A DNA stretch of 64,000 nucleotides from Roseimaritima sediminicola. Lineage in GTDB: Bacteria; Planctomycetota; Planctomycetia; Pirellulales; Pirellulaceae. The stretch is from positions 1-64,000 of the forward strand of contig NZ_WIAD01000030.1 of assembly GCF_009618275.1 (NCBI RefSeq), in the 5' to 3' direction. The translations under genes and the position numbers were made by a program. Shown here piece after piece: positions 4,785 to 9,156 of this stretch. The first letter of the stretch is position 1. The number at the start of each line of letters is the position of its first letter. The notes under the pieces were generated by a model that worked only from the letters and a program-made list of their open reading frames with translations, had not been told where the DNA came from and made no database searches.

Positions 4785-5405
4785 TTAGCGTTTTTGGTGG
4801 ACTTGGATGTCGTAGGGGCCGCGGAAGCTGACCAAGAGCGCTCCGGCGGCGGCGTGCCGCAGAAACACCTGTTCAAAAAAATCCGCTTCGCCGGGCCAAG
4901 GATACGCGAAGACGACGTCGAAGTCGTCCAGCGCCAGGTCCAAGCGATCGTAGAGGGACTCGGCGGCGTGCCCCAGCGAGGGCAGATAGGGATCGTCCGC
5001 CAGGCGTTCGGCGCGGCGGGGCAGAAAATTGCCGTGCTGCAGTTCGACCGGTTGTTGCCAGAGGGCGACGATCTGGCGGGCTTCTTCGAGCAGAGCCGCT
5101 TCGGCTTCCACGGCCACGACGTCCCAGCCCAAGCTGGCGGCCACGCAGGCGTTGACCGCCAAGCCGCAGCCCCACTCGATAAATCGGTTGCCCTGGGGCA
5201 AGCGAGCTTCGGCGATCCAGTGCAGCGTTTGATAGACCAGACGATGGTCGCTGGCAACAAACTGTTCGACCTTGGTCGAATCCAGCCGGTCGTGAAAGGC
5301 TTGGGTGACCGCAAACGACCGATCGAGCAATCGCCCGACTTCCGAAGAAATCGGGCGATCGGCCAGGTTCTCCGGCACTTCGATACGATGCAGTCGCGGC
5401 CTCAC
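4785..5405 (-). CDS. Class I SAM-dependent methyltransferase-like protein
   Basis: The product has a Rossmann motif I (FIEWGCGLAVNACVAASLGW) followed by an acidic strand end (VVAVEAE), and a motif resembling DFDVVFAYPWPGE where methyltransferases bind substrate or adenine. The GTG at 5405 is preferred: it gives 206 residues and starts 4 bp after the stop of the upstream large gene. An ATG at 5483 would add 26 Ser/Arg/Pro-rich residues inside that gene. It follows the P-loop/DUF4332 gene and precedes the SRPBCC gene on the same strand. Substrate unknown. Confidence 0.7.
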   Translation of the reverse strand: MRPRLHRIEVPENLADRPISSEVGRLLDRSFAVTQAFHDRLDSTKVEQFVASDHRLVYQTLHWIAEARLPQGNRFIEWGCGLAVNACVAASLGWDVVAVEAEAALLEEARQIVALWQQPVELQHGNFLPRRAERLADDPYLPSLGHAAESLYDRLDLALDDFDVVFAYPWPGEADFFEQVFLRHAAAGALLVSFRGPYDIQVHQKR

Positions 5406-5409
5406 CGAA

Positions 5410-8400
5410 TCAGGCGGCGCGCAGTTCGCGATGGTGGCCGGCGTACTCGATCCACGCGGTGATCTCCTCGAGGTCCGGGGCATCGGAGCCGCGGAGGATT
5501 CGTTTGCCGGCGGTGGTATCGACCACGGCGGTGATCTCCGAGAGCAGGGTCTGCGGATCGTAGCCGATCAATTGTTCCGGTTCGTAGATCCCGGCGGCGA
5601 CCAACAACTGGGCGTCGTGCCCACGCAGCATCGGGATCCGGCAAACCAGCGCGGACTGACGTTGCCACGAGCGGACTTCTTCGCCATCGATGCGACGATT
5701 GTTCAATTCCATCGCCACCTGTTCGGCGTCGGCTGTGAGCAGGTCGTCGACCGTGTACAGGCCGATCTTTTCCAGCTTGTTCGCCGTGCGTGGTCCGATC
5801 GTCGGAGCGTCGACGATGGGGCTTTTGCGTTCCAGATAGAAACGCCATTGCCGCTCGGTGCCCGACGTCGCCGAGGCGACCTCGGTTTCTTCCGTCGCCC
5901 GCGGCGACATGCTGACGACGTCCTGAGCGATCTCGTGGCGCTGGCCGGATTCGCTGCTGCGGCGTCGACGGCGTTGGCTGCGGAGACGTTCTTTGCGCGA
6001 ACGTGACGAGCCCGCAGGGCGGTCCTGCGTACCGTCGTAACCGCTGCGGTCAAAGCCTTCGGCGTCCCGCGCGGCCGGGGCGAAGCGGTCGGCTTCGGCG
6101 GCCGGACGCGGCGCTCCGCTCAGCGATGCCGACGCGCGGTTGTTGTTCGTGCTCGGCGAGTTCTGGTGCCGCGGGGCGCGGCGACCATGCCGACCTTCGC
6201 GAGCCACCGAACGGTTCGCTGCGGCGATCCAGCTGGTGATCCGCGACAGTTCGCTGCTGCTGCCGCTGCGGAGGATCTGACGACCTCGCTCGGTCGCGAA
6301 GAACGCTTCGACTTTCTCGAGCAGTTCGCCCGGATGCATGCCGGCCAGGCGTTTGGGATCGGTGATGCCGCAGCCGACCAGCACGCGAGCGTCGAAGGCG
6401 CGCAGCTGGGGCACGCGGCACATCAGTCGAGCTTCATTCTGCCAGCGCCGCACGGCGTGTTCGTCCACCTGTGGCATTCCCAGCGAGTCGGCCAAGCGAG
6501 CCGGATCGGCCGCCATCAGTTGGCCGATTCGCGACATACCGACGTCGCGCAGACGGGCCGCCGCGACGGCATCGACCGATGGGGCCTGATCGACGGGGCT
6601 GTCGGCAGTCAGGAAGAACGGACTGGGAGCCGCATCGCGGCGCGGCGACGTATCGGCGGGCCCGGCGGAAGCGGCCGGTTCGTAGCGGCGAGCCGAGAAG
6701 TTTTCGGGATTGGGATACGCCGAGTAGACTTCCAGCGGCGGTGTGGTCGTGCGAGGCGCCGGATCGGCGGCGAAGCCGATGTAGGCTTCGCGCCAAGCCA
6801 TGTCCAGATCGCGGTTGATGTCCAGCGGGGCGTACCGCGGCGCCGACGGCTGGATGACGGTGCGGTGTCCCTGCGAGCGCAGGTGGTGGATCGTGCCGCC
6901 GCGAAGCGACACGCGGTCGGCCACTTGGCGGCTCCGCGTCAGCAGGATCGTTTGATGCCCGGCATCGGCAAAGTCCAAGACGGTTTCCAACCAACGCGGC
7001 AACGCGGCACTGTACTCGTGCCGGTACTCGCCATAACCGTCGTCGTAACGGACGGTCGTCTGAGAAAGCGAATCGAGCAGGCTGGGCGTTTCGATCAACA
7101 GCGGTACGCCGTGGCCGCGGCGGGCCAGTTCGTCGACGGCGGCCAGCCGAATCGCCAAGGCGGCGATGTAACGATCGTCGTTGGGCAGGTAGTTGTCGCT
7201 GCGGCCGTCGATCGAGATGCCCTGGCCGATCGCCGGTTCGTAATGCGTCCCGGCGACCGTCGGTTCGGCGCCGCGCCAACGGATGTCCTGGTAACGACCG
7301 CCGGACAGTCGCTGCAGCCAATGGCTGGCACGCGGGGCGAGCGACGATTGATGCGTGGTGACCGGACGACGCAGGCGGGCGATCTGCTGCAAGCAGGTTT
7401 CCCGCTGACGCAGGTAGTCGCCGCGGCGGGTGTCGCGGGCCAGCAGGTCGCGGACGTGATCCAGTTCCCGCACGATCGCGGCACGCTCTCGCAGCTGCGG
7501 CCGCGGGGTTCGTTCCGGCAACCGGGCACGCTCCGAACGCAGCCGGCGCAGTTCGGTGAGGCTGGTTTCCAGGCGGTTGAGCGTACCGTCCAGCTCGCGG
7601 GCGGTCTCCGTGCGGTCGTTCTCCAGGCGTGCGATCCGCCGCTCGTGGGCGTCCCGATCACACCACTGCGCGGAGCAGCCTTCGCTGAGCAACCACTCGT
7701 ACAGGTGCGGATGGTCCTGGCACTGCCGCCAGTCGCCGAAGGTGGCCTCGATCTGCTCGTGCGAGACGTGGTGTTCGGTGGCGATCCGCTTGAGCATCTC
7801 GCTGCGATGGCGGACCAGGTGATCGATCTCCCGCTGGGTCGCTTCCAGTCTCGCTTCCAGGGCATGCAGCGATTCTTGTTCAGGCGTCGCGCCACAGCGG
7901 CAGCCCGATTCGTGCTGGAGGTCCGCGTCGAGGCGATCGCGGAGCTGGCGGATGTCCCGCAGGGTGCGTCCCCAGCGGAGCAGTTGACCGTCCAGGTCTT
8001 CCAGTTGCCGGCGATGGGTTTCGGCGATCGCCCGGCGGGTGGAATCGACGCGAGGGACGCCCGCGTCGGCCTTCAGTTCGGCGTCGATCTCGGCCAGAAC
8101 GCGTCGCAATTCGACCTCCTGCTCACGCAGCCGCCGGATATCGCTGTCGACATCGGCTTCGCACTCCAGCAGCCGCAGCCGCTGGGCGTCGTGTTCGGCG
8201 CACTGTTCCTGCTCGGCGGCCAAGCGATCGATCTGGGCCAGTTCGGCAATCAATTCCGTTCGGCGTCGCTCCAGGCCGGGAATCGGTTCGGCGTCCGGTT
8301 CCAGGTCGGCCAGCAGGCGATCGAGTTCGGCGATACGACGTTCGAGACGGGTGATTTCGCCGTAGTGCGTCGGCGCGGCCATCACGGTCGTGTCCAAGCC

Positions 8401-8808
8401 GGCTCGCTGGGCCGCGACGACGGCCGAGAGGATCGACTGATGGTTGCTGGTGGTGACGATTCCGTCGATGATCGCCGGCGACCAGGTTTCGAAACCGGTG
8501 TGGGAGGCCGGCTGGGACGAGAGCGAACGGCCGCCTCGCGGTTCCAGTTGGGTGCTGTAGCGTCCATCGGAATCGCGAACGCAGTGCCAGAGGCCATCGC
8601 GGGCGGCCCACACGACGCGTCCCCGCTGGGGGTCGGCCAGATTGCTCAACCGACGATCGCCCTGCATCATCTCGCGCAGGAAACGCAGGACCGTGGTTTT
8701 ACCCGAGCCGGAGGGGCCGAGAACGGCGTTCAGTTTGGGAGAGAAGGGTCCCAACTGCACTCGCTGCAGCGGTCCCTGTTGGTCGATATCGATCCGTTCC
8801 AAATACAT
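5410..8808 (-). CDS. SMC-like P-loop ATPase with coiled coils and two DUF4332-like domains
   Basis: A 1132-residue protein with an SMC/RecF-like head: MYLERIDIDQQGPL, then Walker A GPSGSGKT at 31-38. Long Arg/Glu/Leu-rich coiled coils follow (about 130-540), with a cysteine-rich turn in the middle (CRC near 300, CSAQWC near 373). The head closes with a Walker B-like LLIETPSLLDSL near 580. The C-terminal third holds two repeats of a helix-hairpin-helix type domain resembling DUF4332 (about 755-875 and 1000-1130, each with a GIxxPxxL motif), separated by an Arg/Ser-rich linker. This suggests DNA or nucleic-acid binding; the role is unknown. The start ATG 8808 has GGAGGAG nine bases upstream. 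It diverges from recG. Confidence 0.8.
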   Translation of the reverse strand: MYLERIDIDQQGPLQRVQLGPFSPKLNAVLGPSGSGKTTVLRFLREMMQGDRRLSNLADPQRGRVVWAARDGLWHCVRDSDGRYSTQLEPRGGRSLSSQPASHTGFETWSPAIIDGIVTTSNHQSILSAVVAAQRAGLDTTVMAAPTHYGEITRLERRIAELDRLLADLEPDAEPIPGLERRRTELIAELAQIDRLAAEQEQCAEHDAQRLRLLECEADVDSDIRRLREQEVELRRVLAEIDAELKADAGVPRVDSTRRAIAETHRRQLEDLDGQLLRWGRTLRDIRQLRDRLDADLQHESGCRCGATPEQESLHALEARLEATQREIDHLVRHRSEMLKRIATEHHVSHEQIEATFGDWRQCQDHPHLYEWLLSEGCSAQWCDRDAHERRIARLENDRTETARELDGTLNRLETSLTELRRLRSERARLPERTPRPQLRERAAIVRELDHVRDLLARDTRRGDYLRQRETCLQQIARLRRPVTTHQSSLAPRASHWLQRLSGGRYQDIRWRGAEPTVAGTHYEPAIGQGISIDGRSDNYLPNDDRYIAALAIRLAAVDELARRGHGVPLLIETPSLLDSLSQTTVRYDDGYGEYRHEYSAALPRWLETVLDFADAGHQTILLTRSRQVADRVSLRGGTIHHLRSQGHRTVIQPSAPRYAPLDINRDLDMAWREAYIGFAADPAPRTTTPPLEVYSAYPNPENFSARRYEPAASAGPADTSPRRDAAPSPFFLTADSPVDQAPSVDAVAAARLRDVGMSRIGQLMAADPARLADSLGMPQVDEHAVRRWQNEARLMCRVPQLRAFDARVLVGCGITDPKRLAGMHPGELLEKVEAFFATERGRQILRSGSSSELSRITSWIAAANRSVAREGRHGRRAPRHQNSPSTNNNRASASLSGAPRPAAEADRFAPAARDAEGFDRSGYDGTQDRPAGSSRSRKERLRSQRRRRRSSESGQRHEIAQDVVSMSPRATEETEVASATSGTERQWRFYLERKSPIVDAPTIGPRTANKLEKIGLYTVDDLLTADAEQVAMELNNRRIDGEEVRSWQRQSALVCRIPMLRGHDAQLLVAAGIYEPEQLIGYDPQTLLSEITAVVDTTAGKRILRGSDAPDLEEITAWIEYAGHHRELRAA

Positions 8809-9156
8809 GTGTCTGGCTCCTCCTTGGCCGACAAAGGACTGGGGTGCCACCCGAAACGTCGCAGCCAGCGGCGACCGGGGGGCGGTCGAGTCAGCTAGCA
8901 CGCGGGAAGGCGGCCTCATGCGGGTCTGGAACGGAACCGTTCGTTGGGTCGATGGCATCGGAATCCATTCCGTCGGGGTAGGCTAGCGAAAGCGCCAACG
9001 GCGGGGATAGAGCGATCCGGGAAAATTTTGTCATTTTGATTCAAGTCGTCCGAGCGGACTTGCGCCGTAGCTGAAGTCGCCAGACTTTGGATGGTTGCTG
9101 GTGTCTGGTTGCGGTATAAAACACCGATTCCCTTCGCCGCTCTTTCGTTGACTGCG
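8809..9156. other. Divergent intergenic region between the SMC-like gene and recG
   Basis: A 348-bp spacer between two divergently transcribed genes, so it must hold both promoters. The only structure I recognise is one A-family hairpin at 9067-9090, about 65 bp before the recG start. Short frames inside do not look coding. Confidence 0.6.
9067..9090 (+). repeat. A-family hairpin repeat upstream of recG
   Basis: Stem form CTGAAGTC-GCCA-GACTTTGG, where the inner pair is G-C instead of the C-G seen at 11429, a compensated change. This copy is unusual in lying at a gene 5' side. Confidence 0.8.

Follow-up and report, generated by a model that had tools for sequence, protein, structure and literature searches.

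The usual view of SMC and Rad50 proteins is that they work as ATP-driven machines, and Mre11-Rad50 pairs are generally regarded as nucleases. Among the described systems that resemble the locus studied here is YhaN (AAA_27, PF13514), the SbcC/Rad50-like partner of YhaO; these names, as well as the signature and Walker B assignments used below, are ones we take from general knowledge of the SbcCD/Mre11-Rad50 family. DUF4332 (PF14229) is met as a stand-alone protein, and its mention in the searched literature was confined to a figure legend of one paper; nothing relevant was found there on planctomycete SbcC/SMC or YhaN proteins. A further point of comparison is provided by the ASRP/coalescin group, archaeal SMC-related proteins that have Walker A as well as Walker B and, in most cases, a zinc hook (PMC9389158). 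Here we describe a gene within a 64,000-nucleotide stretch of Roseimaritima sediminicola DNA (the window) whose product carries two full DUF4332 matches within an SMC-like body, and we compare it with its relatives.

Layout of the protein

The gene is a minus-strand open reading frame with an ATG start that runs from 8808 to 5410, at the position given by an earlier, sequence-only reading of the window, and it encodes 1132 amino acids (5410..8808 includes the stop codon; all features below lie on the same strand). A Shine-Dalgarno-like AAGGAGG (8819..8825) is found 10 nt before the ATG. In the alignment the window protein and its relatives have the N-terminus MxLERIDID in common, and residues 31-38 (8695..8718) form an intact Walker A motif, GPSGSGKT; the Pfam AAA and SMC matches at this P-loop were all sub-threshold. 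The coiled-coil arms, at residues about 150-480 (7369..8361), appear as helices in a low-confidence full-length model and in the alignments. A head split by an antiparallel coiled coil is suggested by alignment and predicted helices, the full-length model (pLDDT 50, built from two sequences) being unusable for the head. The C-terminal part consists of a first DUF4332 domain, D1 (residues 735-868, 6205..6606), a disordered Arg-rich linker (residues 869-984, 5857..6204) that includes RKERLRSQRRRR and contains 20% lysine plus arginine versus 14% in the whole protein, and a second DUF4332 domain, D2 (residues 985-1132, 5413..5856), which ends in LRAA. Pfam placed DUF4332 on two stretches of the window protein (1.4e-33; 116.1 bits versus a gathering score of 23.2), with HHH_5/Cdd1 similarity at the second. 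The open reading frame, Pfam, the alignments and the composition thus confirmed what the sequence-only reading had claimed, namely that one protein combines an SMC/Rad50-type architecture with a pair of DUF4332 domains separated by an Arg-rich linker, and chance is excluded since the protein is conserved in dozens of genomes. The 3' end of the gene is overlapped by a methyltransferase-like open reading frame on the same strand (4785-5483), which is placed likewise in three congeners.

The window protein resembles ASRP/coalescin in its short SMC-like layout with Walker A and Walker B positions at opposite ends, and the group gave the best NCBIfam match (2.4e-13); it differs by having neither a Walker B motif nor a CxxC hook. 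Identity with ASRP/coalescin (NF045487) was rejected, as the score reached 49.6 bits versus a cut-off of 300 and the best stretch, residues 191-485, is coiled coil. The sequence of the window protein contains no Rad50-type CxxC zinc hook. Near the coiled-coil tip it has a Cys-Arg-Cys (residues 303-305, 7894..7902); in relatives this region contains a single CxC motif or two of them, the second often CxCxxH, bordering a helical hairpin at the tip of the arm. Such motifs were noted in the window protein and eight other loci; many members have them and many have lost them, and they are a possible metal site unlike the Rad50 hook.

A predicted helix-hairpin-helix tail

The sequence-only reading had proposed that the C-terminal repeats are of helix-hairpin-helix (HhH) type and form a DNA- or RNA-binding tail. 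When modelled with AlphaFold2 on a four-row alignment, with two rows each from the window and Rubripirellula, D2 reached a pLDDT of 90 and folded as two tandem HhH units, so the proposal withstood the test that its authors had set, a structure prediction giving no such fold. In structural alignments, residues 11-73 of the model resembled the RAD51/RadA N-terminal HhH domain over about 60 residues (rmsd 1.3-1.8, with a Z of about 8-9, which is modest for small helical domains) and residues 64-148 resembled NusA AR and polymerase-theta HhH domains. The RAD51/RadA N-terminal and NusA AR domains have a small HhH fold in common with D2 (rmsd 1.3-2.4 for some 60 residues); they belong to different proteins, and sequence identity is about 20%. 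A Foldseek search with the D2 model returned nothing below an E-value of 0.001, and given this result and the modest Z the sequence evidence matters: besides the HHH_5 similarity, the tail profile found the HhH domains of DinB and RAD51D in the PDB. A viral fold library gave no significant match. Nucleic acid binding is the natural reading of the predicted HhH fold, and the proposal of a DNA- or RNA-binding tail is supported to that extent.

D1 and D2 are homologues (hhalign probability 100, E 3.6e-46), and the hairpin APSIGP+TA is kept in D2 of nearly all members. In the window protein the D2 hairpin, APTIGPRTANKL (the TIGPRTA version), is intact, and D1 has lost the GxG hairpin (APSVDAVAAAR), as in the window's clade. 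In the second half of D2 the hairpin, RGHDAQ, is conserved and departs from the canonical form. With this hairpin non-canonical and the GxG hairpin missing from D1, some of the tail may bind protein. The linker is enriched in arginine and lysine in most members. Compared with three congeners, D1 is 82-87% and D2 66-79% identical, with 42-66% for the two head lobes; within the genus no other part of the protein is as well conserved as the tail. An Ala-Ala C-terminus, usually LxAA, occurs in 62 of 72 family members versus 12% of other long open reading frames (5413-5424 in the window, minus strand); it could be a packing element or could resemble a ClpXP degron.

DUF4332 is not confined to this gene in the window's genome. 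A Zn-dependent phospholipase-C-like protein (PF00882), of a family structurally related to S1/P1 nucleases, carries one DUF4332 (G000:C118:665-2284). This fusion was also seen at seven other loci, in relatives with or without the SMC fusion, and its DUF4332 often ends in LxAA, as does the SMC-fused tail. The genome also has a third DUF4332-like protein, some 240 aa long, which adjoins a CutA-like open reading frame (G000:C97:268404-268820).

Distribution, motif decay and probable YhaO-YhaN ancestry

In the survey that the sequence-only reading had called for, searches at order, family and phylum level and the reading of 74 genes showed that three families, all of one planctomycete class, conserve the fusion. 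In whole-genome searches it was present in many genomes, though not in all, of the window's family (Pirellulaceae), in many of a second family from the same order (f7), and in a third family (f21) that belongs to the same class. Among 149 sampled genomes of the phylum from outside this class, the only matches were short, weak ones of DUF4332 type. The neighbourhood of recG, to which the earlier reading had drawn attention, is real here and in congeners, recG being divergent and upstream in the window, and is not kept beyond the genus. Linkage to recG was rejected as a functional clue, as it is seen in the same genus only and no recurring neighbour was found across Pirellulaceae genera. In f7 the locus is common to several genera, with a GGDEF protein and polysaccharide genes as neighbours, which we judged incidental rather than functional partners. 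The gene looks vertically inherited and dispensable, not like a mobile defence gene.

The head of the window protein retains Walker A; at the signature position it reads LPNDDRY (residues 541-547, 7168..7188), with LPNDD in place of the LSRGT of intact relatives, and at the Walker B position PLLIETP (residues 569-575, 7084..7104), with IET in place of LDD, intact relatives having PLVLDDV or PLILDEP. According to the alignment, the window protein lacks the serine and glycine of the signature, the aspartate of Walker B and the catalytic acid. Thus the term ATPase used in the earlier reading fits the SMC/Rad50 layout and Walker A and is doubtful as to activity, since signature and Walker B are lost; the window protein probably hydrolyses ATP poorly or not at all. 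Throughout the window's clade the Walker A lysine is present in 11/11 and the Walker B aspartate in 0/11. Among 57 aligned members Walker A is kept in 35, the Walker B acid pair in 23 and both in 19, while in f21 Walker A is present in 23/23 and signature and Walker B in nearly all. Walker A was lost in 22/51 genes of the window's order. On a tree of the tail, built without head columns and with deep branches partly poorly resolved (15/54 open), Walker A changed state at least 8 times, or was lost 10 times if loss is irreversible, and Walker B changed at least 9 times. Members lacking the P-loop are not pseudogenes, since their heads are of full length and their tails well preserved.

Motif-complete members point to the origin of the head. 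Four of them match AAA_27, the family of YhaN, and they share with it the motifs GPNGSGKT, LTxG, LSRGTRDQ and LDDV. A further likeness is the operon with a YhaO-like gene in f21, where such a gene lies directly upstream of the SMC-DUF4332 gene in 19/23 loci. The family differs from YhaN by one or two added DUF4332 domains and by a YhaO partner that is predicted to be catalytically dead or is absent; the window member also differs in lacking the signature, Walker B and an AAA_27 match, none being listed for PF13514 at E up to 1. When aligned to canonical YhaO, the metal-ligand set (DxH, GD, GNHD, H, GHxH) was complete in 0/19 of the f21 YhaO-like genes, single residues surviving in a few; for the weakest of them, homology depends on a few-member profile together with gene position, and the E-values from our scripts refer to databases of only some thousand open reading frames. 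In f21 the Rad50-like ATPase would accordingly be read as having a dead-nuclease partner. No YhaO-like gene was found beside the members in Pirellulaceae and f7, and the window gene has no YhaO/SbcD-type nuclease in an operon with it, the degenerate YhaO occurring only beside f21 relatives. Loss of Walker A is confined to members without the partner (0/23 versus 22/51, Fisher p 6e-5), which is one contrast and not independent evidence, because the two groups are different clades.

Furthermore, the window's genome holds two separate YhaO-YhaN-like pairs, and no YhaO-like gene was found elsewhere in it. The first pair is canonical, with Metallophos and AAA_27 at 234 bits. In the second (G000:C97:280856-286226) YhaO keeps DxH and GD but no longer has the GNHD and GHxH ligands; the ATPase of this pair bears a long Pro/Glu-rich tail. 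The N-lobes of 14 other members, all those tried except the window's, scored 1.3 to 8 times higher against the second YhaN-like protein of the genome than against the first. The window N-lobe ties at 12.5 bits to either paralog and is too diverged to be placed directly, so the ancestry of the window protein rests on the family alignments. Complete genomes of Pirellulaceae and f21 usually hold a tail-less second YhaN together with the tailed one, and one f21 genus yielded the tailed form alone. Two f21 members with a single DUF4332 (L117/L118) could be an independent fusion. Descent of the family from a YhaO-YhaN-type nuclease operon, with the nuclease subunit predicted dead or else absent, is fairly well supported by these comparisons.

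Possible roles and proposed history

On this background we give about equal weight to the statement, and to its denial, that the window protein is an orphan descendant of a YhaO-YhaN (SbcD-SbcC/Mre11-Rad50-like) ATPase subunit which now acts as a DNA-binding or DNA-bridging scaffold. The strongest rival concerns the tail, which might instead be a protein-protein module that docks the SMC-like body and, separately, the phospholipase-C-like protein onto a common partner in the transcription or repair machinery. NusA AR domains and RAD51 N-terminal domains can act as such modules, and among the structural matches are NusA AR1/AR2 and the N-domains of RAD51 paralogs; D1 is without a DNA hairpin, RGHDAQ and the terminal AA are conserved beyond what plain backbone binding needs, and DUF4332, often with the same LxAA, also ends the phospholipase-C-like protein in many genomes. 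We nevertheless regard this reading as unlikely, given the canonical hairpin in D2 of nearly all members and the Arg/Lys-rich linker of most, as expected for DNA or RNA contact.

A working ATP-driven machine of SMC/Rad50 type for DNA repair or chromosome handling, with the window member hydrolysing through substituted motifs, would agree with the Walker A kept in this member and its whole clade and with the complete motifs of 19/57 relatives and nearly all f21 members. It is harder to reconcile with the absent catalytic residues of the window protein and with the P-loop-less relatives that keep the same tail, and we hold it to be distinctly improbable. The suggestion of the earlier reading that the protein is a defence ATPase fared worst. 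Patchy presence, a fast-evolving head and weak similarity to Lamassu LmuB and GajA-type ATPases would fit an anti-phage role, but the PADLOC matches were partial, weak and confined to the P-loop or the coiled coil, the neighbours are housekeeping genes with no effector gene or recurring effector-like neighbour among them, and the gene sits in one class only, at a locus common to several f7 genera and at recG within the genus; we consider such a role very improbable indeed.

For the descent from YhaO-YhaN to a scaffold, we infer an order of events from the AAA_27 matches, the N-lobe scores, the state of the f21 YhaO and the genome contents. A second YhaO-YhaN pair would have arisen in planctomycetes and been duplicated, after which one ATPase copy would have gained C-terminal HhH domains (DUF4332). 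The nuclease partner would then have lost its metal site and vanished from the locus in two families of the window's order, and the ATPase motifs would have eroded many times, the HhH tail staying in place. The window protein may still bind ATP at Walker A, with little or no hydrolysis; Walker A in 11/11 of its clade would be odd if the nucleotide were irrelevant. The D2 hairpin and the Arg-rich linker would hold DNA non-specifically and the proteins would pair through the head and/or the arms, so that DNA would be tethered or bridged, not cut or pumped.

More broadly, and tentatively, a Mre11-Rad50-like complex may have turned stepwise into a non-catalytic DNA-architecture protein, in which the nuclease first died and was next lost, the ATPase motifs were afterwards lost many times independently and the newly gained four-HhH tail became the functional core. 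If true, an SMC-type protein would here do its work without hydrolysing ATP, and a widespread family with its nuclease dead or gone and its ATPase repeatedly decayed, yet kept for its tail, would reveal which elements of such machines remain functional in the absence of catalysis. DUF4332 gains a predicted fold and a testable role. Planctomycetes are known for unusually condensed nucleoids, and the protein would be a candidate nucleoid protein for these bacteria.
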